Virus record (IMG/VR): IMGVR_UViG_3300049811_000043
Span: 1 to 21,217 of that record
Source of the DNA: a virus
DNA length: 21,217 nt
Strand: one strand, 5' to 3'
Under the pieces are notes generated by a model. That model was given only the letters and a program-made list of their open reading frames with translations, ran no database searches and was not told where the DNA came from. Every line of letters starts with the position of its first letter. The first letter of the stretch is position 1. Shown in pieces: positions 2,564 to 21,217 of the stretch. Made by a program: the position numbers and the translations under genes.

Positions 2564-2748
2564 GTAAGAAAATTGCAACTGAAAACCTTTTCATCATTCG
2601 TACCGGGAAGCGCGTGGATGTATTCCAAGGTACGGGCTGGGATCAGTGGTCTCAGTTCAGCGTGGTCAAGGGTCATCCAAAACTTGAGAAGGGGGGTCCT
2701 CTCAGCGAGGAAGATTTCAAGGCCCTCAAGGAGGTCTGCAATGGTTAA
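2560..2748 (+). CDS. Hypothetical protein (62 aa)
   Basis: Coupled to the deaminase by ATGA at 2560-2563. The sequence begins MSKKIATENLFIIRTGKRVD, continues with a Trp/Gln-rich turn (GTGWDQWSQF), and ends in a short acidic helix (LSEEDFKALKEVCNG). This would fit a small beta-sheet protein with one helix. The last bases contain a strong aaggagg (2728-2734) serving the next gene. No family recognised. Confidence 0.65.
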   Translation: MSKKIATENLFIIRTGKRVDVFQGTGWDQWSQFSVVKGHPKLEKGGPLSEEDFKALKEVCNG

Positions 2749-3118
2749 GATCAAACGGTTACACACTGATGACAGTCTGTGGAAGCACTTGAGCACACAA
2801 GGCTTTCCGAACTGCTGTGGCCTGAGTGTGTGGCTCGGGTTTCCTCATGACAGTGGGTACGGGAATTTGATGATAAACCCGCACGACGACTGCTTTCGCA
2901 ACTTCATCACGCGAGTTAAAGACACAGAGAAAGCAGCAAGGCAATATGGTAATCGGTCACCGAAAGTCTGCATCACTCTCTCTGAGGCAACTCAGCAGAA
3001 GATGTTGAATATGTTCCGATCACTCCCTATCATCGAGTATGAATGCACCTTCCAAGGCATCCATGCTCACAAGGTGGTGTTCATGATTCTCAACTTCGAC
3101 GAAGTGGAGCTGGTATGA
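2741..3118 (+). CDS. Hypothetical protein, member A of a tandem paralogous pair (125 aa)
   Basis: ATG 2741 lies 6 bases after aaggagg (2728-2734), an excellent ribosome-binding site, so the longer frame from 2573 was rejected. It shares motifs with the next gene in the same order: NCCGLSVWLGFPHD here against NCCALAEIGGFPND there, RSLPIIEYECTF against RSLPIVEHEFEF, and HKVVFMIL against HRLLSMLL. The shared adjacent Cys-Cys could bind metal or form a disulphide. The two genes probably arose by tandem duplication. The stop overlaps the next start (ATGA at 3115). Function unknown; it sits directly upstream of the amidoligase module and may belong to it. Confidence 0.75.
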   Translation: MVKIKRLHTDDSLWKHLSTQGFPNCCGLSVWLGFPHDSGYGNLMINPHDDCFRNFITRVKDTEKAARQYGNRSPKVCITLSEATQQKMLNMFRSLPIIEYECTFQGIHAHKVVFMILNFDEVELV

Positions 3119-3489
3119 GTCTTCTACGAATACCCAAAAAAAGTCCGAGAGCAAAGTACTGTCACCTCGATATGAGGGACTTCGACAACTGCTGTGCTCT
3201 AGCAGAAATCGGGGGCTTCCCTAATGACTTACTACCTCCCGAGCAGATCGAGGGCGCAGTCATTGACCTTCTAGAAAGACTGTCCTTTGATGTGGCTAGT
3301 CATGCAATCGTGACTTTCAACATCGAGAATCAGTCCAAGGTCATTGACTGCATCCGAAGTCTTCCAATCGTGGAGCACGAGTTCGAGTTCACGAGTGATA
3401 TAACGGGCCATCGGCTGTTAAGCATGCTTCTACACAACAGAGATATTGTCGAAGAAGCTGATTTCGACGACGAAGAAAGTGACTGGTAA
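3115..3489 (+). CDS. Hypothetical protein, member B of a tandem paralogous pair (124 aa)
   Basis: It starts in the ATGA overlap with its paralogue and has nearly the same length (124 against 125 residues). Conserved blocks are the N-C-C-x-L...GFP-x-D segment, RSLPIVEHE and the following H-R-L-L-S-M-L-L strand. The N-terminus is more basic and the C-terminus is an acidic tail (EEADFDDEESDW) that the paralogue lacks, which suggests divergence after duplication. Its TAA overlaps the ATG of the class I glutamine-amidotransferase-like gene (TAATG at 3487-3491). No known family recognised. Confidence 0.75.
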   Translation: MSLLRIPKKSPRAKYCHLDMRDFDNCCALAEIGGFPNDLLPPEQIEGAVIDLLERLSFDVASHAIVTFNIENQSKVIDCIRSLPIVEHEFEFTSDITGHRLLSMLLHNRDIVEEADFDDEESDW

Positions 3490-4088
3490 TGATCGGACAC
3501 GCACTGTTTCAGAGTAGCTTCCTCAAAGGGACTACTGTCTACACACCCGAGCAGCTAAAGGGTATCTCTCTACTCGTGCTTCATGGTGGGGAAGATATCT
3601 CTCCTGTGTTGTATGGAGAGCGAGTCGGTCACGCGCATTCCGCCCCAACCGCCAGCAAACGAGACCTAGCTGAGGTTGCTCTTGCTTTGGAAGCAAAGAA
3701 GCAAGGCATTCCGATTCTGGGAATCTGTCGCGGCGCTCAACTGATGTGTGCTCTAGGTGGCGGTGGCCTATGGCAGCATGTCAACAACCATGGTTCAGGT
3801 AGGCACGCCCTGCACATCGGTGAAGTCGCCACTTGGACGAACACCTGCCATCACCAGATGATGAAGCCAACTCCAGAAATGGAGATCATTGCAACATCCC
3901 CATGCCTCTCTCCGAAGAAGTGGGGAGAAACACAACAAGGAGTGGAAACGGACGAAGACGAACCTGAGATCATCTACATCCCAGACTTCAAAGCCCTGTG
4001 TGTCCAAGGACACCCCGAGTGGTTATCCAGTGAGGATCCGCTCGTGAAGATCACCAAACACCTACTCGAAGAAAGGAATCACCTATGA
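3489..4088 (+). CDS. Class I glutamine amidotransferase-like / gamma-glutamyl hydrolase (peptidase C26-type)
   Basis: The class I GATase catalytic set is complete: nucleophile Cys80 in GICRGAQLM (nucleophile elbow), then His175 and Glu177 in GHPEW. An N-terminal LHGGEDISP motif (31-39) matches the PuuD/peptidase C26 branch, which hydrolyses gamma-glutamyl amides instead of feeding a fused synthetase. At 199 aa it is slightly shorter than PuuD. It is the first gene of a coupled run with two amidoligases, a class II GATase and an ATP-grasp ligase. It may therefore trim, recycle or edit a gamma-glutamyl product, or supply ammonia. The substrate is not visible in the sequence. Confidence 0.85.
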   Translation: MIGHALFQSSFLKGTTVYTPEQLKGISLLVLHGGEDISPVLYGERVGHAHSAPTASKRDLAEVALALEAKKQGIPILGICRGAQLMCALGGGGLWQHVNNHGSGRHALHIGEVATWTNTCHHQMMKPTPEMEIIATSPCLSPKKWGETQQGVETDEDEPEIIYIPDFKALCVQGHPEWLSSEDPLVKITKHLLEERNHL

Positions 4089-4861
4089 GCTTCATGCTCG
4101 GGTCAGACCCTGAACTGTTCGTCGGCTCCAAGGGAAAGGTTGTGTCTGCCATCGGTCGATTTGGCGGCACCAAAGACGAGCCCAAAGCCGTAATCAGGAA
4201 AGGCTTCAGTATTCAGGAGGACAATGTTCTTCTTGAGTACAACACCCCGCCCGCTCGGCGAGCTGGAGACTGGCTCTCGTATCAGATGACGATGCGAGAG
4301 TATCTGGAAAAAGAGGTATCGAAACAAAATCTGGAGATTCTTCCGATTGCGTCAGCCTCGCTGTCGGATGAAGAACTCAAAGATCCCCGTGCTTGGGTCT
4401 TTGGGTGTGATCCAGACTTCAATGTGTGGACTGGGGAAATGAACCCACGCCCGCATTGCGAAGATCAAAACTTCCGTTCGGCAGGCGGCCACATCCATGT
4501 CGGCCTACCAAAGCTGACGGCAGATGAGAAGATCCACCTCACCCGGTATCTGGATCTATTCATCGGGGTGCCTCTCAGCCTCCTTGATCCAGACAAAGAT
4601 CGTCAGAAGCTTTACGGTAAGGCGGGTGCCATCCGCTTCAAGCCCTATGGTTTGGAGTATCGCACTCCGTCGAACTGGTGGACCGGTAGTGAACGCCGAA
4701 TCCAATGGATCTGGAACTCTGTGTCACACGCGTACAGCACCTATCGCCTGCGTAAGGTGATGACAAAAGACGTTGGATTGATGATCCTTGCAGCGATTGA
4801 CGAGAGGCAAACTAATGTTGCCTCTGAACTCATCAAAGCATACAGCATGGAGCTACCATGA
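4085..4861 (+). CDS. Amidoligase, COOH-NH2 ligase type (glutamine-synthetase-like fold), first of two
   Basis: It shows the hallmark motifs of phage COOH-NH2 ligases: GSDPELF (6-12), EYNTPPA (51-57), RSAGGHIHVG (131-140) and RFKPYGLEYRTPSNWW (184-199). The acidic and His residues in these correspond to metal/ATP-binding positions of the glutamine-synthetase-like fold. Such enzymes are predicted to join a carboxylate to an amine using ATP. At 258 aa it is a full single domain. ATG 4085 is in an ATGA overlap with the upstream gene, and the stop overlaps the next start in the same way (4858-4861). The substrates are unknown. It is clearly different in sequence from the second amidoligase in this operon. 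Confidence 0.88.
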   Translation: MSFMLGSDPELFVGSKGKVVSAIGRFGGTKDEPKAVIRKGFSIQEDNVLLEYNTPPARRAGDWLSYQMTMREYLEKEVSKQNLEILPIASASLSDEELKDPRAWVFGCDPDFNVWTGEMNPRPHCEDQNFRSAGGHIHVGLPKLTADEKIHLTRYLDLFIGVPLSLLDPDKDRQKLYGKAGAIRFKPYGLEYRTPSNWWTGSERRIQWIWNSVSHAYSTYRLRKVMTKDVGLMILAAIDERQTNVASELIKAYSMELP

Positions 4862-5553
4862 GAAGATTGCATGTAGTCGAGTGGGATGCTGGTGCGGTGG
4901 AGCGCAAGTTCCATCACACTATCGCAAAACTGGTGCGTCTTGATACAAAGACGCAAGAACCAGACTGGAGCGAAAGCTTCTTTGCTTGGATGCACAATGT
5001 TCAAGGGCAATCCTTTGGGACTGTCGTTAGCATTGATGGTTCCAAGTACAAGGAACACCCTGTCATTCTGGAAAACGATCCAGCGATGATTGGGAGAACC
5101 TTCCAAAGTAGCTTGGATAAGGCACGAGAGCAGGGCTTCGGGGAATACAAATGGTTCCGAGTGGTATACAATCGCTGGGAGCCGGGAGCATACGCAACCA
5201 AAGATGGTGCGTTGGTTGAGTTGGTCCACAAGATTGTCCGTGGGTTCAAGACAGGCCTAAGTGCTGGACAATGGCAGATCCTCCGGTATACATCTTCGGG
5301 GGTGGAGCCGATTTCAAACAACACCTTCTCGGTCTATACACAAACCATGTCGGGGGAACCTGCCAAGCCCGGAAAGTATGCGAACAACACGACGCTGCTT
5401 CCATCTGGACTAGTGATCTTCGGTGATGCCCTTTACTATCGGGGACAGGCTTGTGGAGTTGTGTACCCCAAGAAGATCGTTACAAAGAATCCGTTGCTGA
5501 AGGCAATTCTGGAAAAAGATGTGAAAGGACTCCCATGGCAAGTAACGTGCTAG
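4858..5553 (+). CDS. Unknown protein between the two amidoligases (231 aa)
   Basis: Coupled by ATGA to the first amidoligase and overlapping the second (start 5535) by 19 bases, so it is almost certainly part of the same module. It appears globular and soluble, with many aromatic residues. Segments such as EWDAGAVERKFHHTIAKLVR, SFGTVVSIDGSKYKEHPV and LPSGLVIFGDALYYRGQAC suggest a mixed alpha/beta fold. Possibly notable residues are His19-His20 and a C-terminal Cys. I recognise no family or catalytic motif. By position it could be an acceptor, a carrier or an accessory enzyme of the amide-forming pathway. Confidence 0.8.
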   Translation: MRRLHVVEWDAGAVERKFHHTIAKLVRLDTKTQEPDWSESFFAWMHNVQGQSFGTVVSIDGSKYKEHPVILENDPAMIGRTFQSSLDKAREQGFGEYKWFRVVYNRWEPGAYATKDGALVELVHKIVRGFKTGLSAGQWQILRYTSSGVEPISNNTFSVYTQTMSGEPAKPGKYANNTTLLPSGLVIFGDALYYRGQACGVVYPKKIVTKNPLLKAILEKDVKGLPWQVTC

Positions 5554-6389
5554 TCTCTCGGATCTTCCCCAACGCCACAAACTTCTTCTACGACATGGAC
5601 GAAGTTGATGCCTCCGTTGAGGGTAAAAAGACTTTCTTCGGGGCATTTCGAAATCCGGTCGGTATCGAAGTGGAAATGGAGAACGCTGCGGGAGGTATCC
5701 AGAACACCATCATCAAGCAAAAACTGCTCTGGAAGACCACCGCAGACAACAGCCTCAAGAACAACGGGATTGAGCTTATCAGTGACCCTGTAGCAGGGCG
5801 GGGCATTGATGCTGCAATCTTCCAGTTGGAGGCGTTGTACGAGCAATTCCCGAAGATCGATTTCTCTCATCGGTGCTCGATCCATGTCCACCAGAATGTA
5901 GCAGATATGACGGAACAGCAAGTGTTTCGTCTAATGCGGTACTACGCTCTACTAGAAGGGGCGCTGTTCAGCTACGCCCACCCCCTACGAAGCGCGAGTC
6001 CCTTCTGCTACCCAATCGTGGCATGTCCTCCAATGCTGTACAGTGCCATTGTTCGAAACGCTATGCCTGAAATGAAGTACGGGGCATTCAACCCTGCCCC
6101 AATTTCTCGGCAAACAACGGTGGAGTATCGGCATCTGGAAGGTACAAAGGATGTTCGAAAGATCCGCCGGTGGGTGCAGATTCTCTGCAAACTGCATCGC
6201 TATGTTTCCAACCTGTCTGACGAAAAGGAGGCCCGAGACTTCGAACAGATTGCTCGCGGTAAGGACGATAGGTTTGCTCCATTCGAGCGGATGCTCGGGG
6301 TACACCGCGGCCTGTTTTCAGATGAAGTACTCGATGACTCGATTTACAAGGGCCTTGTTTGGGTAGGCGCCCTTACTACGGAGGACTGA
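5535..6389 (+). CDS. Amidoligase, second and divergent family member (284 aa)
   Basis: ATG 5535 has aaagga about 7 bases upstream; the in-frame extension to 5451 would run inside the previous gene. Motifs of the Amidoligase_2-like branch are present: GIEVEME (43-49), DNSLKNNGIEL (71-81), CSIHVHQN (114-121) and TVEYRHLEGT (195-204). These are the acidic, Asn, His and Glu/Arg positions of a glutamine-synthetase-like ATP/metal site. The enzyme is predicted to form an amide or peptide bond from a carboxyl and an amine. It is followed one base after its stop by the class II GATase. Two distinct amidoligases in one operon suggest two sequential ligations or two acceptors. Confidence 0.87.
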   Translation: MASNVLVSRIFPNATNFFYDMDEVDASVEGKKTFFGAFRNPVGIEVEMENAAGGIQNTIIKQKLLWKTTADNSLKNNGIELISDPVAGRGIDAAIFQLEALYEQFPKIDFSHRCSIHVHQNVADMTEQQVFRLMRYYALLEGALFSYAHPLRSASPFCYPIVACPPMLYSAIVRNAMPEMKYGAFNPAPISRQTTVEYRHLEGTKDVRKIRRWVQILCKLHRYVSNLSDEKEARDFEQIARGKDDRFAPFERMLGVHRGLFSDEVLDDSIYKGLVWVGALTTED

Positions 6390-6390
6390 T

Positions 6391-7659
6391 ATGTGTGGAA
6401 TTTACGGTTTGTTTTACAAAGCTGCTGGTGGCTTCTTTCCCGGTGATCTGGATACGCTGAAGAACCAGGCCATCGTCACCAGTCTTCGTGGAGATCACTC
6501 CTCTGGCATCGCTGTTCTACGAAACGATGGCTCAAAGCGGCCATGGATCGTCAAGACTATCGGGGACCCTTTCAACATCTTCCACAACCCCGAAGCCATG
6601 AAGGAAATGAAGAAGTTCTTCGAGGGGTCAAAGGCAAGTGCAGGTGCGTTTGGTCACGGTCGGTTAGCAACCCGTGGCGAAATCTCCCACCGCAATGCCC
6701 ACCCGTTCGTTGAAGGGCACATCACCCTTGTTCATAACGGCACCATCAACGCTGGTCTCGACATGAAGCAAGAGTGTGAGGAGGGTAAGCAGGTAGATGT
6801 GGACAGTCATGCCCTCGCCATCGAAATGTCCAAGATTGGGGTACGCGAAGCACTCGCCAAGGTCAATGGTGCTTTTGCTATCATCGCCCACGATCAGAAG
6901 GAAAAGTGTGTCTACTTCGCACGGAACAAGGAACGGCCTCTACACTACTTGGACCACAACACACGCCTGATGGTGATGAGCGAGTTTGGTGCTCTAACTT
7001 ATCTGGGGTGGCGAGAGACCAAGTACCAAGCCAACTCTCTGAGAGCGGATTTGTTTAAGGAGTTCAAAGAGAACATTCTGTACAAGTATGATCTGACCAA
7101 GTTCACCCTTACTGAAGAAGGTCCAATCAAGGAAGTGCGGACTAGTTCCGAGAGTGGTGTCCCTTTTTACCAGAGTCCGAAGGGTGGTACAGTTGCTAGT
7201 AAAGGGGAGATTCTCCTTCTTCTGAAGAAGATCATCCCTCCTGCTCGTAAGAGCAAGGAATACACCTACATCTTCGAGGATGATGAACTGGACGAATACA
7301 TCGGACGATCCTCCAGCCTGTTCGATGTTAATGAGGGCGCACTAGCAACAGCCCCTCGGTTTTACATGGAGCGTGTGAATGGTCGTGCAGCTACGCGTAC
7401 TGTTCGCATGAAGGAAGTGGAGTGGTATGCCACTGTTGGGGATCATCCCAAGACTGTCACAACAATCAACAAGAAGGAACTGTCTTTCGAAGACTGGAAG
7501 GAAAAGCGGGATCAGGGCTGTGTCAGTTGTAGTGGCCCTATCGAAGACAAGGATGCTCACAGGACCATGCTTACCCAAACGGGTAATCTAATCTGCCATG
7601 AGTGCCTTGCAACTGATGGTTTTTCACTCTCAAGTGTTACTACAGGAGTTCTTCAATGA
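6391..7659 (+). CDS. Class II glutamine amidotransferase with C-terminal zinc ribbon (422 aa)
   Basis: It begins Met-Cys-Gly-Ile, the N-terminal-nucleophile start in which Cys2 is exposed after Met removal. Other class II GATase positions are Arg33-Gly34-Asp35 in SLRGDHSSG, GHGRLATRGE (88-97), NAHPF (102-106) and HNGTI (115-119). These hydrolyse glutamine and release ammonia. No synthetase, phosphoribosyltransferase or SIS domain follows. Instead there is a region of about 220 residues ending in a C-x2-C...C-x2-C zinc ribbon (Cys377, Cys380, Cys402, Cys405). ggagg at 6380-6384 precedes ATG 6391 by 6 bases. It probably supplies ammonia or an amide to a neighbouring ligase. The C-terminal part is unlike housekeeping enzymes. 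Confidence 0.9.
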   Translation: MCGIYGLFYKAAGGFFPGDLDTLKNQAIVTSLRGDHSSGIAVLRNDGSKRPWIVKTIGDPFNIFHNPEAMKEMKKFFEGSKASAGAFGHGRLATRGEISHRNAHPFVEGHITLVHNGTINAGLDMKQECEEGKQVDVDSHALAIEMSKIGVREALAKVNGAFAIIAHDQKEKCVYFARNKERPLHYLDHNTRLMVMSEFGALTYLGWRETKYQANSLRADLFKEFKENILYKYDLTKFTLTEEGPIKEVRTSSESGVPFYQSPKGGTVASKGEILLLLKKIIPPARKSKEYTYIFEDDELDEYIGRSSSLFDVNEGALATAPRFYMERVNGRAATRTVRMKEVEWYATVGDHPKTVTTINKKELSFEDWKEKRDQGCVSCSGPIEDKDAHRTMLTQTGNLICHECLATDGFSLSSVTTGVLQ

Positions 7660-8375
7660 AATTTCGAGTTGTTCCGTACAAGCCCGGTTCAAACAGTGCA
7701 AAGCTTCTGGCTACTGCGCTTAAGGAATCTCTTGGATACCATGTGTTCCGTGGTCCAGCGAAGCCAAAGCGCATCAACATCAACTGGGGTTGTGAAGGTG
7801 GGATCAACCCGGCAGAAGCCATCAAGAAGGCACAGAACAAACTGCGTACCTTCGAAGCCCTGAAGGACACTGATGTTCTCATCCCTTGGTTCACCACCAA
7901 CAAGACCGAGGCGGCTGAGTCCGGTAAGGACATTGTGGTGCGTAAGCTCCTCAACAGCCACAGCGGTAAGGGAATTGAGGAGTTCAACAACCAAGATGCG
8001 CCTCTGTATGTGGAGTATGTCAAGAAGATCGCAGAGTTCCGCGTTCATGTGGTCAATGGGGAAGTCATTGATGTACAGGCCAAGCGTAAGCGGAAGCTGA
8101 CTGCCCCGGATCAACCAAAGGCAAACCCACGCATTCGCAATCTGGACAACGGATGGGTGTTTTGCCGTGAAGATGTAGAAGCACCTGCTGCTGTGCTTGA
8201 GCAAGCCAAACTGGCTGTAACTAGCCTTGGCCTAGCTTGGGGTGCAGTAGACATTGTGTGGAACAAGAAGAACCAAGCCGCAGTAGTACTGGAAGTCAAC
8301 ACGGCCCCAGGACTCTGCGAGACTTCAGCCAAGATCTACGCCAACGCTTTCATCAACGCCTACGGACAGCCATGA
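7656..8375 (+). CDS. ATP-grasp domain ligase (239 aa)
   Basis: The ATP-grasp elements appear in order: a phosphate-binding loop region VVRKLLNSHSGKG (94-106), adenine/hinge strand YVEYVKK (118-124), EFRVHVVNGEVIDVQAKR with conserved Arg/Lys (127-144), and the Mg-binding strand GAVDI plus VVLEVNTAPGL (196-200, 210-220; Glu213, Asn215). ATP-grasp ligases activate a carboxylate as an acyl-phosphate and join it to an amine or other nucleophile. The N-terminal pre-grasp part is short, and the motif layout is closer to peptide-tagging or RimK/D-Ala-D-Ala-type ligases than to purine enzymes. Start and stop are both in ATGA overlaps within the module. Confidence 0.9.
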   Translation: MKFRVVPYKPGSNSAKLLATALKESLGYHVFRGPAKPKRININWGCEGGINPAEAIKKAQNKLRTFEALKDTDVLIPWFTTNKTEAAESGKDIVVRKLLNSHSGKGIEEFNNQDAPLYVEYVKKIAEFRVHVVNGEVIDVQAKRKRKLTAPDQPKANPRIRNLDNGWVFCREDVEAPAAVLEQAKLAVTSLGLAWGAVDIVWNKKNQAAVVLEVNTAPGLCETSAKIYANAFINAYGQP

Positions 8376-9088
8376 AACTAGTCGAAAAGTTCCCCAACGC
8401 ATTGTACGCCGAAGTCACGCAGTATGTGAACAACGAAATCGCCTTCCTTCTGAAGGATGGTGACAAGGTTGTTTGCCCACACAAGCCAGTCAAGTGCCGT
8501 GACTTCCTCAACGATACCCTCGTTTGGCACAAGAAGCAGCAAAAAGGAACCATTTACGGGTACTCATACCCAGGCCCCATCGACGAGGATAAGACTCGCC
8601 TCATGGTGACGACACCGGCGTATCCGAGCGAACACCTTCGCATGGAGAACTACGAGGAGTTTTTCCATTGGCTCAACGGTGTGGAGATTGAGCTAGGTGT
8701 AACGCCGAGTGTGCTGACGAAGCTGGATACTCCGAAGCTCTCCTACATGGTGGAGGGGGATCCTGTGTGGCAGTCATCCACTGTTCACCTGAGCTTCTAC
8801 ACCAGTCTGATTCGCTACCTTGGTACGAAGCTGAAGACTAGTCCTCCAAAGAGTCTCGATCAGTTCATTCTGGATGCGCCGAAGGACAGCGTGAATACGC
8901 GGATCGCGCAGTATGGCGTAGTGCGGCTTGGAAAGGCTATCCTGAGCCTGAAGATCACGGAGGTAAGCAACTCCCGTACTGCACCTACATCCATGCACAA
9001 CATCAATGGATTCGTTTCTGCCACCACCCCTGCCCTTGCGGCAAGTTGTGTCTATGGGCAGGAACTACAAACCCTACTGAAGCTCTAG
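8372..9088 (+). CDS. Unknown protein, last gene of the amidoligase module (238 aa)
   Basis: ATG 8372 is in an ATGA overlap with the ATP-grasp gene; the earlier in-frame start at 8237 lies inside that gene and was rejected. It is probably soluble. A motif DKVVCPHKPVKCRDFLND (about 31-48) holds two Cys and one His that might bind metal. Later segments include GVEIELGVTPSVLTKLDTP and YGVVRLGKAILSLKITEV. I recognise no family. Coupling to the ATP-grasp gene suggests a shared pathway, for example binding or modifying the product. It ends 6 bases before the next gene, which carries its own ribosome-binding site and a candidate promoter. Confidence 0.8.
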   Translation: MKLVEKFPNALYAEVTQYVNNEIAFLLKDGDKVVCPHKPVKCRDFLNDTLVWHKKQQKGTIYGYSYPGPIDEDKTRLMVTTPAYPSEHLRMENYEEFFHWLNGVEIELGVTPSVLTKLDTPKLSYMVEGDPVWQSSTVHLSFYTSLIRYLGTKLKTSPPKSLDQFILDAPKDSVNTRIAQYGVVRLGKAILSLKITEVSNSRTAPTSMHNINGFVSATTPALAASCVYGQELQTLLKL

Positions 9089-13947: not shown

Positions 13948-15054
13948 ATGGACTTAATATTTGACACTGAACAGACCACGTGGAACACAGGCTCCCCGTT
14001 CGATAGTAGAAATTTCAATGTCTGTATAAGTTACGCAACCTCCACCGGAGAACAAGGTGTTCTATTCGATTACCACGAATTTGAACCACTTTTCAACAGG
14101 GCCACCAAGTTAATTGGCTTCAACCTGAAGTACGATCTACATTGGCTACGCCGTCTAGGCTACGATTATCGAGGTAAAGAACTCTACTGCTGCCAAGTGG
14201 CTGAGTTCTTTCTTGGGAGGCAATCTCCCAAGTATCCGAGTCTCAACGAGACCGCTGCTCGATACGGGCTTGGCTCCAAAGTCGACAAAATAGAACAATA
14301 TTGGACTAACGGAGTTAATACCCACGAAATACCAAAGCACGAACTAGAAGAGTACGCTCTTCAAGACGCAATCCTCACGCAAAACATTTACCAAAAACAA
14401 CAAGAGCGAATACAGCCACATCAAAAGACTCTACTGAAGCTTCAAATGCTTGACCTTGAAGTTCTAGAGGACATTGAATGGAATGGTATGTTCTTTGACG
14501 AAAACCTAGCCTACAAAAAGAAGGCTGGGATTGAGGAGCAAATTGACAGGATACAAAAAGAGCTTTCCCTCTACAGTAGCGTCCCTTGTTTTAACTGGAA
14601 TAGTAACGATCACTTGTCTGCCCTTCTTTATGGGGGGCAAATACAAGAGAAACGACGTGTACCTTCGGGAATTTACAAAACAGGAGAAAAAGCCGGACAG
14701 CCCAAGTTCAAAATTGAAGTCGTAACACATACCCTACCAAGGCTGTACAAGCCGCCTAAAGGCTCTGAGCTTAAGAAAGAGGGTGTATGGTCTACTTCTG
14801 AAGAGTATTTACGCAAACTATCAGACAAGAAAGGACTTGTAAAAGGTATTTTGGAAATCGGTAGATTGCAGAAGCTAAACTCAACCTTCGTTGAGGGACT
14901 GCTTAAAAAGCACGCCGAGAGTATGTGGGAGCCCCACTACATACATGGGCAATACAATCAGGTTGTCACTAGTACCGGTAGATTGTCTAGCTCAGGTCCA
15001 AATATGCAGAACCTATCTGGGGATGCCTTAGATCTATTCACCACGAGGTACTAA
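13948..15054 (+). CDS. DNA polymerase (family A), N-terminal part: 3'-5' exonuclease and start of the polymerase domain
   Basis: All three proofreading motifs are present: Exo I (Asp6-x-Glu8 in FDTEQT), Exo II (GFNLKYDLHW, Asn59/Asp63) and Exo III (YALQD, Tyr136/Asp140). Thumb/palm sequence follows up to the conserved GRLSSSGPNMQNLSG (344-358). The frame then stops at TAA 15052-15054, just before motif A of family-A polymerases. Motifs A, B and C are found downstream at 15229-15933 in the same reading frame. The start at 13948 places Exo I at residue 6, as expected, although no Shine-Dalgarno is visible. This is therefore one half of a split polymerase, 368 aa long. Confidence 0.88.
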   Translation: MDLIFDTEQTTWNTGSPFDSRNFNVCISYATSTGEQGVLFDYHEFEPLFNRATKLIGFNLKYDLHWLRRLGYDYRGKELYCCQVAEFFLGRQSPKYPSLNETAARYGLGSKVDKIEQYWTNGVNTHEIPKHELEEYALQDAILTQNIYQKQQERIQPHQKTLLKLQMLDLEVLEDIEWNGMFFDENLAYKKKAGIEEQIDRIQKELSLYSSVPCFNWNSNDHLSALLYGGQIQEKRRVPSGIYKTGEKAGQPKFKIEVVTHTLPRLYKPPKGSELKKEGVWSTSEEYLRKLSDKKGLVKGILEIGRLQKLNSTFVEGLLKKHAESMWEPHYIHGQYNQVVTSTGRLSSSGPNMQNLSGDALDLFTTRY

Positions 15055-15239
15055 TGGCCCCATACTACAGTTGTTTGGAAGAGCTTCAAAAGTGGTTTCG
15101 AGAGTACGGGGTTGCTACAGTCATGGAGGATCTTCAACTACTTAATCCAGAACTATACGCCCAGCTTGAAAGCTTCTTCCAACGGGAGACTAAAGGCAAG
15201 GAAATCGCCGCTCTGTTAAAGAGCAAGTATGCTGGTTAA
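15054..15239 (+). CDS. 61-aa ORF inserted between the two polymerase parts
   Basis: It starts in a TAATG overlap with the N-terminal polymerase part and overlaps the start of the C-terminal part by 11 bases, so all three frames are coupled. The product is helical with mixed charge (CLEELQKWFREYGVATVMED, then LESFFQRETKGKEIAALLKS). I recognise no endonuclease, intein or recombinase motif. It could bridge the polymerase halves, be a DNA-binding helix bundle, or be the remnant of an invading element. Confidence 0.6.
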   Translation: MAPYYSCLEELQKWFREYGVATVMEDLQLLNPELYAQLESFFQRETKGKEIAALLKSKYAG

Positions 15240-15933
15240 GATTGATGCAGCAACTCTTGAATGGCGTGGGGCTGCTTGGTTGTCGAATGACAAAACTGCT
15301 ATCGAAGAAATCAATGATGGCGGTGACTTTCACTCTGCAAACCAAACGGAATTCGGGCTACCCACACGCCTAATTGCAAAGCGGTATCTGTTTCGTACCA
15401 TCTATAGGGGGTCTGGTTATGCGTTCTCCGTAGACAATGACTTCAGCGTAGTAAGCGACAAAGCAGATTTTTGGGACAGTATCAATGAGAAGTTTTACAA
15501 GAAGTATTACGGGTTGGATTCGTGGCACCACTCACTTGCACGCACCTGTGCAGAAAGAAAGCCGATACGATCTCCTCTTGGTCGAGAATGGCTGGTGCTT
15601 CCTGATCCCCTCACAGGCAAACTACCCTGGACAGTCTTCACAAACTATCCAGTACAGGGAACCTGTGCAGACCTGATGGCAATTGCTCGTGTCAGTTTGT
15701 ATCGACGCCTACGAGCAGCCAAGTGTCAAGCTGTCCTAGTATCTACAGTACACGACGATATCAAAGTAGACGCACCTGATTCGGAGGTCCCCTTTGTAGT
15801 AGATACAGCGTACAAGGTGTTTGATGATTTGCCAAACAATGTCAAAAGAATGTTTGGAGTAACACTACCAATCAAGTTCCCAGGAGAAGTCTCCGTAGGG
15901 AAAAACCTACTAGAAATGGAAAAAGTGAAATGA
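15229..15933 (+). CDS. DNA polymerase (family A), C-terminal part with catalytic motifs A, B and C
   Basis: Motif A begins almost at once (VKIDAATLEWRGAAWLS; catalytic Asp6, Glu11, Arg13). Motif B is R-x3-K-x3-F-x3-Y (RLIAKRYLFRTIY, Arg47/Lys51/Phe55/Tyr59). Motif C is STVHDDIKVDAP (172-183; His175, Asp176, Asp177). These are the palm and fingers of a T7/PolI-type polymerase. ATG 15229 lies inside the 3' end of the 61-aa ORF. Its frame equals that of the N-terminal part, separated by a 174-base stretch (15055-15228) that is a multiple of three. The two parts must associate, or be joined at RNA level, to make an active enzyme. The stop overlaps the SSB start (ATGA at 15930). Confidence 0.88.
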   Translation: MLVKIDAATLEWRGAAWLSNDKTAIEEINDGGDFHSANQTEFGLPTRLIAKRYLFRTIYRGSGYAFSVDNDFSVVSDKADFWDSINEKFYKKYYGLDSWHHSLARTCAERKPIRSPLGREWLVLPDPLTGKLPWTVFTNYPVQGTCADLMAIARVSLYRRLRAAKCQAVLVSTVHDDIKVDAPDSEVPFVVDTAYKVFDDLPNNVKRMFGVTLPIKFPGEVSVGKNLLEMEKVK

Positions 15934-16629: not shown

Positions 16630-16717
16630 GCGGGTATGGCCGAGTGGTTTAAGGCACCTGCCTTCCAAGCAGGCGCTATTAAGTTAGCCGCGAGTTCGAA
16701 TCTCGCTGCCCGCTCCA
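16630..16717 (+). tRNA. tRNA with anticodon UCC (Gly) and a long class II variable arm
   Basis: The cloverleaf folds cleanly by eye. The acceptor stem is GCGGGTA/TGCCCGC (one G-U) with discriminator U and encoded CCA (16715-16717). The D stem is GCC/GGC with an 11-base loop. The anticodon stem is CCTGC/GCAGG with loop CTTCCAA (anticodon UCC at 16664-16666). The T arm is GCGAG/CTCGC with TTCGAAT. Between the anticodon and T arms is a 16-base variable arm with a 4-bp stem (GCTA/TAGC). The anticodon loop, discriminator and first acceptor pairs are those of bacterial tRNA-Gly(UCC), but a long variable arm normally belongs to Ser, Leu or Tyr tRNAs. The D arm also looks Ser-like. Confidence 0.88.
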
Positions 16718-20117: not shown

Positions 20118-21217
20118 ATAGAAACGAATCGATTCAAGAACAACTTTGCGTACAATATCTTCAGGAACAAGTACGCACAGGGCCCAAATGATACTTGGGA
20201 CGCTCTAGCAGAGCGGCTGGTTGAAGATGTGTGTGGTACACGGTGGGGGACTACTCAAGCCCTTATGTCTAAGGAAGAGCAAACCCTGCTTACCACATAC
20301 ATTAAGGAAATGAAGTTCCTTCCCGGTGGACGATATCTATACTACGCAGGCCGAGAGGCTAAGTTCTACAACAACTGTTATCTTCTACGGGCAGAAGAGG
20401 ATACGCGGGAAGAGTGGAGTAATGTTACTTGGCGTGCTATGTCGTGTTTGATGACTGGAGGCGGAATTGGCATTGACTATTCGAGACTACGAGCATCTGG
20501 AAAACCACTTAAGAGAACTGGAGGACAGGCTTCGGGTCCTATCCCTCTTATGCACGCAGTCAATGAAATCGGGCGAAACGTCATGCAGGGAGGAAGCCGA
20601 CGCTCTGCGATTTATGCAAGCCTTAACTGGCAACATGAGGATATACCTCTATTCCTTGATGCAAAAAACTGGGACAAACAAAACCTAGTACCAGGAGTTA
20701 CACATTGGGACGCAAAGCAAGTAAACTTCAACCATCATGCTCCTCTGGACATGACGAACATTAGTGTCAACTATGACAATGCAGCGTTGCGTCAACATTT
20801 CGATCCAATCACTCATAAGGAAGATATAGAGCTTCGGGAATTGGATCCAACAAATCCAGTATTTCTGGAGAACTGCCGACAAGCAATGCGAACCGGGGAA
20901 CCTGGGTTCAGCTTCAACTTTGGGAAGAAGGAAAATGAAACCCTCAGAAATGCCTGTACTGAAGTTACATCAGAAGATGATTCTGACGTTTGCAATCTTG
21001 GGTCAGTCAATCTTGGTAATATTGGGAGTCTGGAAGAGTTCGAAGCCGTTGTTTCCGTGGCTTCTAAGTTTCTCGTCTGTGGCACACTTAGAGCCGATCT
21101 ACCATACGAGAAAGTACATCAAGTTCGGCAAAAGAACCGCCGTCTTGGACTCGGACTTATGGGTATCCATGAATGGCTCCTACAACGAGGATACAAGTAC
21201 GAAGTCGTTCCAGAACT
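20118..21217 (+). CDS. nrdJ: Class II (B12-dependent) ribonucleotide reductase, 5' part, NrdJ-like; AUA start proposed
   Basis: Signature segments of B12-dependent ribonucleotide reductase are present: FLPGGRYLYYAG, NNCYLLRAEE (first active-site Cys), MTGGGIGIDYSRLR, QASGPIPLMHAVNEIGRN, VMQGGSRRSA, NACTE (active-site loop) and VCNLGSVNLGN. The enzyme reduces ribonucleoside triphosphates or diphosphates to deoxy forms for phage DNA synthesis. The gene runs off the window end. The frame is open from 20079, but no ATG, GTG or TTG occurs before GTG 20229 and ATG 20265. Those starts would remove conserved N-terminal sequence (FAYNIFRNKYAQGPNDTW). ATA 20118 lies 7 bases after gggag (20106-20110), giving IETNRFKNN. 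Confidence 0.85.
   Translation, partial: METNRFKNNFAYNIFRNKYAQGPNDTWDALAERLVEDVCGTRWGTTQALMSKEEQTLLTTYIKEMKFLPGGRYLYYAGREAKFYNNCYLLRAEEDTREEWSNVTWRAMSCLMTGGGIGIDYSRLRASGKPLKRTGGQASGPIPLMHAVNEIGRNVMQGGSRRSAIYASLNWQHEDIPLFLDAKNWDKQNLVPGVTHWDAKQVNFNHHAPLDMTNISVNYDNAALRQHFDPITHKEDIELRELDPTNPVFLENCRQAMRTGEPGFSFNFGKKENETLRNACTEVTSEDDSDVCNLGSVNLGNIGSLEEFEAVVSVASKFLVCGTLRADLPYEKVHQVRQKNRRLGLGLMGIHEWLLQRGYKYEVVPE

Follow-up and report, generated by a model that had tools for sequence, protein, structure and literature searches.

Phage gene modules that combine amidoligases of the glutamine-synthetase fold with an ATP-grasp ligase and a glutamine amidotransferase (GATase) have already been described. 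Iyer et al. interpreted this kind of module in 2009, as cited in PMC10580990, and the same gene order has been printed for phages UFV-P2 (PMC3890496) and tf (PMC3517423), while the set was also named in phage TC6 (PMC6209634). In LUZ24-like, phiEco32-like, Zobellviridae and other phages, the replication genes follow directly after it. The present analysis concerns IMG/VR virus record IMGVR_UViG_3300049811_000043, a stretch of 21,217 bases (hereafter the window), in which seven tightly packed genes on the + strand at positions 3489-9088, numbered g1 to g7 in their order (Table 1), add a divergent member to this kind of module. We consider it an evenly balanced proposition that the module is a phage-encoded, probably early-expressed accessory pathway for the biosynthesis of a small product or conjugate joined by amide or peptide bonds.

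In the LUZ24/PaP3/UFV-P2-like phages (Bruynoghevirus, Krylovvirus), as in the window, a COOH-NH2 ligase, a protein of a family here called X, an Amidoligase_2 protein, a class II GATase and an ATP-grasp ligase follow one another in the same order, with a short overlap between the X and amidoligase genes and with the module directly before the primase/helicase genes. These phages lack a Peptidase_C26 (C26) hydrolase and carry a gamma-glutamyl cyclotransferase (GGCT) after the ATP-grasp gene, whereas the window has C26 first, g7 last and no GGCT within its 21 kb; protein identity between them is about 30-42% in tblastn matches. phiEco32 and SU10 (Kuravirus), together with Grimontviridae, encode the same five core families and GGCT, but their GATase and ATP-grasp proteins are longer and C26 is missing. 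Alcaligenes phage vB_Af_QDWS535 and its IMG/VR relatives share the order of the window, including C26 before g2, as well as its layout of split DNA polymerase, primase and DnaB; QDWS535 differs in lacking g7, in an extra gene between C26 and g2, and in also having GGCT. All six families (C26, class II GATase, COOH-NH2 ligase, X, amidoligase and ATP-grasp) are likewise common to Paundecimvirus and Citrovirus (O4, CVT22), in which, however, the GATase gene precedes that of the COOH-NH2 ligase.

The conservation of gene order was assessed in two samples. The first, gathered starting from g2, comprised 80 IMG/VR loci; among 95 sequences in all, counting the window, 59 retain the order g1-g2-(X)-g4-g5-g6, and about a dozen show a second order, g6-g1-g2-g5-g4. 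The second sample was picked by the DnaB-type helicase alone, which avoids circularity, and consisted of 33 loci whose upstream sequence ran to at least 7.5 kb, some contigs being common to both samples. The complete core g2-X-g4-g5-g6 occurs in order in 31 of these 33 loci, g1 in 30, and two contain no module gene. A chance arrangement is excluded, as these relatives were picked with no regard to the module and 31 of the 33 show the core order. The two module-less relatives, L173 (a 48.9-kb record) and L153 (17.4 kb), are natural empty sites in which the flanking genes, a small zinc-finger gene and the primase, are retained; no amidoligase, C26, GGCT or GATase_6 was found in either whole record, that of L153 being only about 17 kb long. 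Since the module is complete in 31 loci and absent from two with the flanks kept, it is an accessory unit gained or lost whole. Within the clade, distance matrices of module genes correlate to a similar degree among themselves (r 0.54-0.82) and with that of the primase (0.59-0.77); the module thus descends together with the phage backbone and shows no extra coupling signal. In the phage collection, g2 homologues occur in 312 records and g6 homologues in 311, with a near-equal genus make-up; these more than 300 sequenced records include laboratory phages of P. aeruginosa and E. coli. Bacterial carriers amount to seven short metagenome-assembled contigs, most with further module genes, which are probably phage. 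The initial annotation had compared the locus with the modules treated by Iyer and Aravind, a reading to be given up if the proteins proved not to be amidoligase or ATP-grasp members or if no other genome kept the gene order; neither turned out to be the case, and the same set, usually in the same order, was already in print for other phages.

Several features around the module were recorded alongside. The small zinc-finger gene, found downstream in 55 relatives, was considered as a module member and dropped, as it persists in the module-less relatives; the CxxC...CxxC motif at the end of g5 belongs to g5 itself. An open reading frame (ORF) at 2174-2563 with a deaminase-like look (HAEV...PCAVC) is conserved ahead of the module in 11 loci, and it also lies upstream in the module-less L173. 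Nine loci (L020, L025, L026, L034, L043, L044, L047, L074 and L085) represent a second type of module, which carries C26 twice as well as GGCT and has the order g6-g1-g2-g5-g4; in most of them no X-sized gene fits between the ligase genes.

An amide-bond module with two glutamine-synthetase-fold amidoligases, one ATP-grasp ligase and a class II GATase had been predicted from the sequence, and profile searches bear this out: g1 matches C26, g2 COOH-NH2_lig, g4 Amidoligase_2, g5 GATase_6 and g6 ATP-grasp. Conservation of catalytic residues was scored on alignments of 78-95 homologues per protein. The g2 protein matches PF14395 (3.6e-12, 46.5 bits against a cut-off of 25) and phrog_3815 (1.4e-69), and its conserved motifs QxDNVxxE, GGHxH and ExR are intact in the window. 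For g4, the matches are to PF12224 (1.8e-10, 41.5 bits against 22) and phrog_7469 (3.5e-27), and 97-100% of 86 homologues share its GxExE, HxH and ExR residues (residue numbering in this alignment runs from base 5529, not from the ATG at 5535). The class II GATase g5 (PF13522, 7.7e-16, 58.7 bits against 27) has the expected Cys2, present in 96% of homologues, along with conserved R33, R91, N116-G117 and D138, and the CxxC...CxxC motif is found at its end in 40 of 91 homologues.

The g6 protein matches phrog_2599 (7.4e-56), and its nearest NCBIfam relatives are the glutamate ligases MptN (5.8e-9) and RimK (6.4e-8). Its homologue alignment shows conserved K62, E127xR129, K143, D199 and E213xN215; it thus carries the ExR arginine that marks ATP-grasp ligases forming peptide or amide bonds (PMC4431377). 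This kinship could mean that the module, like RimK, adds amino acids or short peptides to ribosomal, RNA polymerase or phage proteins, and that g1 takes these tags off again. We regard such tagging as unlikely: g6 falls under every RimK and R2K cut-off (32.3 bits against 143.4 for TIGR00768, 22.3 against 26.2 for R2K_2 and 19.6 against 26.3 for R2K_3), three ligases plus an ammonia source exceed the needs of simple glutamylation, and neither X nor g7 shows a known binding domain. A search of all seven proteins against PADLOC-DB gave no match to known anti-phage defence systems.

The first gene, g1, encodes a member of Peptidase_C26 (PF07722, 2.8e-20, 73.5 bits against 20.5), with PDB matches to Lin1909 (1.8e-8) and PuuD (1.6e-6), and its best scores in Pfam, PDB and NCBIfam are with gamma-glutamyl hydrolases, namely Peptidase_C26, PuuD and gamma-glutamyl-CDP-amidate hydrolase; at 37.5 bits against the 266 of the NCBIfam equivalog NF008471 (PuuD), it belongs to the C26 family and is not PuuD proper. 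The catalytic residues Cys80, His175 and Glu177 had been read correctly and are present in 94-96% of 95 homologues, in which H101, H106 and H121-H122-Q123 are also conserved. The accompanying description of two glutamine amidotransferases acting as ammonia suppliers is not supported as it stood: the full glutamine-binding set (C2, R91, N116, G117, D138) occurs only in g5, g1 is closest to gamma-glutamyl hydrolases, and its place is filled elsewhere by GGCT, which releases no ammonia. A gamma-glutamyl hydrolase is the better reading of g1.

The distribution of C26 and GGCT among relatives bears on the same point. Relatives without C26 carry GGCT, often next to the ATP-grasp gene. Among the first 21 named module phages, six have C26 only, 12 GGCT only, three both and none neither. 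The prediction that no phage lacks both was then applied to nine held-out named phages, of which four have C26 only and five GGCT only, with none having both or neither. All 30 named phages together thus comprise 10 with C26 only, 17 with GGCT only and three with both, none lacking the two, and the class II GATase is present in all 30; of the IMG/VR module genomes tested, 40 of 40 have C26. If the alternation holds, g1 and GGCT would do the same job, and the activity common to the two families is gamma-glutamyl release; this favours gamma-glutamyl removal over ammonia supply for g1, and a pathway with gamma-glutamyl amides as intermediates. With kinship taken into account, the alternation is suggestive but no longer significant, because the pattern goes back to only 3-4 evolutionary switches.

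The sequences show which classes the enzymes belong to, their catalytic residues, the inheritance of the module as a unit and the alternation of C26 with GGCT; from these we infer the reaction directions, gamma-glutamyl chemistry and step order as follows. Glutamine would be split by g5 to give ammonia; g2, g4 and g6 would each consume one ATP in activating a carboxylate, which is then joined to an amine or amino acid, probably glutamate; and g1 would hydrolyse a gamma-glutamyl amide at a late step, as GGCT would do in other phages. The gamma-glutamyl group would serve as a temporary amine carrier or protecting group, with X (g3), in which no enzyme fold is recognised, acting as a conserved partner and g7 as an optional accessory. 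The Puu, butirosin (BtrJ/BtrG) and Campylobacter phosphoramidate pathways likewise use a gamma-glutamyl group to hold or shield an amine until a C26 hydrolase or a GGCT cleaves the group off; these pathways are analogous in their working only, use other ligases and substrates, and no membership is claimed. As a tentative generalisation, the widespread phage amidoligase module may be a gamma-glutamyl carrier pathway in which three ligases build up amines held as gamma-glutamyl amides and either of two unrelated enzymes, C26 or GGCT, releases them. If true, this would provide a first mechanistic rule for a module interpreted in 2009, and X would be a core component that had gone unrecognised. 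The inheritance of the module as a unit, the rule of C26 or GGCT, and family X offer concrete handles for experiment, namely the step that g1 and GGCT would share and the proteins needed together to reconstitute the pathway.

Several observations count against the proposed pathway. Members of the C26 family can have glutaminase activity as well. The Fisher p of 9.5e-6 for the C26/GGCT alternation is uncorrected for kinship and overstates it: on the GATase tree, C26 requires only four changes and GGCT three, and the 1-4 independent pairs available do not suffice for a test that allows for kinship. The Pfam score of g6 against ATP-grasp_3 (5.7e-5, 23.7 bits) is only marginally over the cut-off of 23.2. 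The exact reactions of g1, g5 and g6 are not transferable from their relatives because all three, MptN and RimK matches of g6 included, score far below the NCBIfam equivalog cut-offs. In the literature searched, we found no product, substrate or assay of module proteins, no biochemical work on them and no demonstrated amide-bond formation.

In SU10, the ATP-grasp, GATase and YtfP (GGCT-family) proteins were detected by mass spectrometry and classed as early, in a sample that was a concentrated phage preparation and thus does not prove a virion location (PMC4281155). An early position and loss as a whole unit are compatible with a host-directed accessory function, and the module might alter host cell-wall peptides or surface polymers by amidation or peptide addition, blocking superinfection or delaying lysis. 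Cell-wall modification against superinfection was suggested for phiEco32 in 2009 (Iyer et al.), as repeated in PMC10580990, and bacteria are known to amidate peptidoglycan with a ligase and a GATase, MurT/GatD (PMC3267633). We nevertheless consider an envelope target rather improbable, since Pfam and NCBIfam searches of the module revealed neither a Mur-type domain nor a gene for the envelope, and no supporting experiment was found in the literature. Phage DNA hypermodification with amino-acid-like groups occurs in other phages, and the module adjoins replication genes, as might be expected if it hypermodified phage DNA or decorated virion proteins. Both possibilities appear remote: no base-modifying enzyme was recognised near the module, HaeIII cuts the DNA of the module phage tf (PMC3517423), and the module lies in the early region, apart from the virion genes.

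A metabolic role has been put forward for phage ZRK32, assigned to a deep-sea planctomycete: passages of PMC10945688 give the set a role in nitrogen metabolism and report growth promotion for the phage carrying it, so that the genes would form an auxiliary set aiding host growth. Those passages report no single-gene test, and nitrogen uptake does not need three special ligases, which makes this role very unlikely. The planctomycete host is itself open to doubt because the DNA of ZRK32 (OP650935, L201) is 86.6% identical to that of the Pseudomonas fluorescens phage SCYZ1 over 94% of the compared 3-kb stretch in the GATase/amidoligase region.

Two proteins of the module, g3 and g7, had been listed as unknown. 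Neither g3 nor g7 matches a Pfam or PHROG family, and g7 has no NCBIfam match either; single-sequence searches were insufficient, returning no relative of g3 in phages or IMG/VR and, for g7, one phage homologue and none in IMG/VR, and only profile searches succeeded. The ORF between g2 and g4 in relatives belongs to one family, X, which includes LUZ24 gp17, PaP3 orf47, SU10_087 and O4_54 and is a module member in all main lineages. An X profile built without the window finds g3 with a HMMER E of 0.015, an hhalign comparison (P 4.7e-4, probability 32%) is collinear across the C-terminal two thirds, and the g3 slot between g2 and g4 is identical to that of X. Because profile matches and slot agree, g3 is most likely a divergent X member, sequence alone not being proof. 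An AlphaFold2 model of X, made from an IMG/VR homologue, has a confident fold (predicted local distance difference test, pLDDT, 92.9), with no clear match in a fold search of PDB (best E 0.037); its likeness to SH3/Tudor-type barrels is only weak and is not used as evidence. The g7 model (pLDDT 70.8) matched nothing in PDB better than E 0.55. Homologues of g7 number 17 in the first sample, mostly after g6, and the family follows g6 in 19 of the 33 helicase-chosen loci, sometimes in two copies; g7 is thus a frequent optional module member.

Table 1. Genes of the amidoligase module in the window, with assignments and their basis.
Gene	Assignment	Position	Strand	Basis
g1	Peptidase_C26 / GATase-I-fold hydrolase	3489..4088	+	Pfam, PDB, NCBIfam, conservation in 95 homologues
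g2	COOH-NH2 ligase type 2, glutamine-synthetase-fold amidoligase, phiEco32-like	4085..4861	+	PF14395, phrog_3815, motifs
g3	Most likely divergent member of protein family X (LUZ24 gp17 / PaP3 orf47 / SU10_087 position)	4858..5553	+	Profile match, slot
g4	Amidoligase_2, second glutamine-synthetase-fold ligase	5535..6389	+	PF12224, phrog_7469, motifs
g5	Class II (N-terminal nucleophile, Ntn) GATase, C-terminal CxxC...CxxC zinc-ribbon-like motif	6391..7659	+	PF13522, residues
g6	ATP-grasp carboxylate-amine ligase, nearest RimK/MptN alpha-L-glutamate ligases	7656..8375	+	phrog_2599, NCBIfam, residues
g7	Optional last module gene, no family match	8372..9088	+	Homologues, most of them after g6

All seven ORFs are present where the initial annotation had placed them, with start codons revised to the ATG at 5535 for g4 and at 8372 for g7. 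Its statement that nearly all genes are joined by ATGA or TAATG applies to g1/g2, g2/g3, g5/g6 and g6/g7, which share ATGA overlaps, and to the TAATG junction between the preceding gene and g1, but not to g3/g4, which overlap by 19 nt, or to g4/g5, which are separated by 1 nt (TGATATG). Directly before the module, the ORFs at 2741-3118 and 3115-3489 are mutual paralogues (E 1.3e-7) without a homologue in the collected relatives. Further downstream, a family A DNA polymerase is split over two genes (13948-15054 and 15229-15933), the first comprising the exonuclease together with the beginning of the polymerase domain (profile positions 53-132) and the second the remainder (154-358). About 30 relatives also have the halves as two distinct ORFs, which are neighbours in QDWS535 but elsewhere lie several hundred bases from each other. 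A tRNA-Gly (TCC) gene lies at 16630-16717, and the ORF starting within this gene (MAEWFKAPAF...) is a read-through artefact of the usual kind, ahead of a 5'-3' exonuclease gene. At 20229-21215, up to the contig end, the window encodes a ribonucleotide reductase barrel domain, possibly B12-dependent on the strength of a weak match to an insertion domain.

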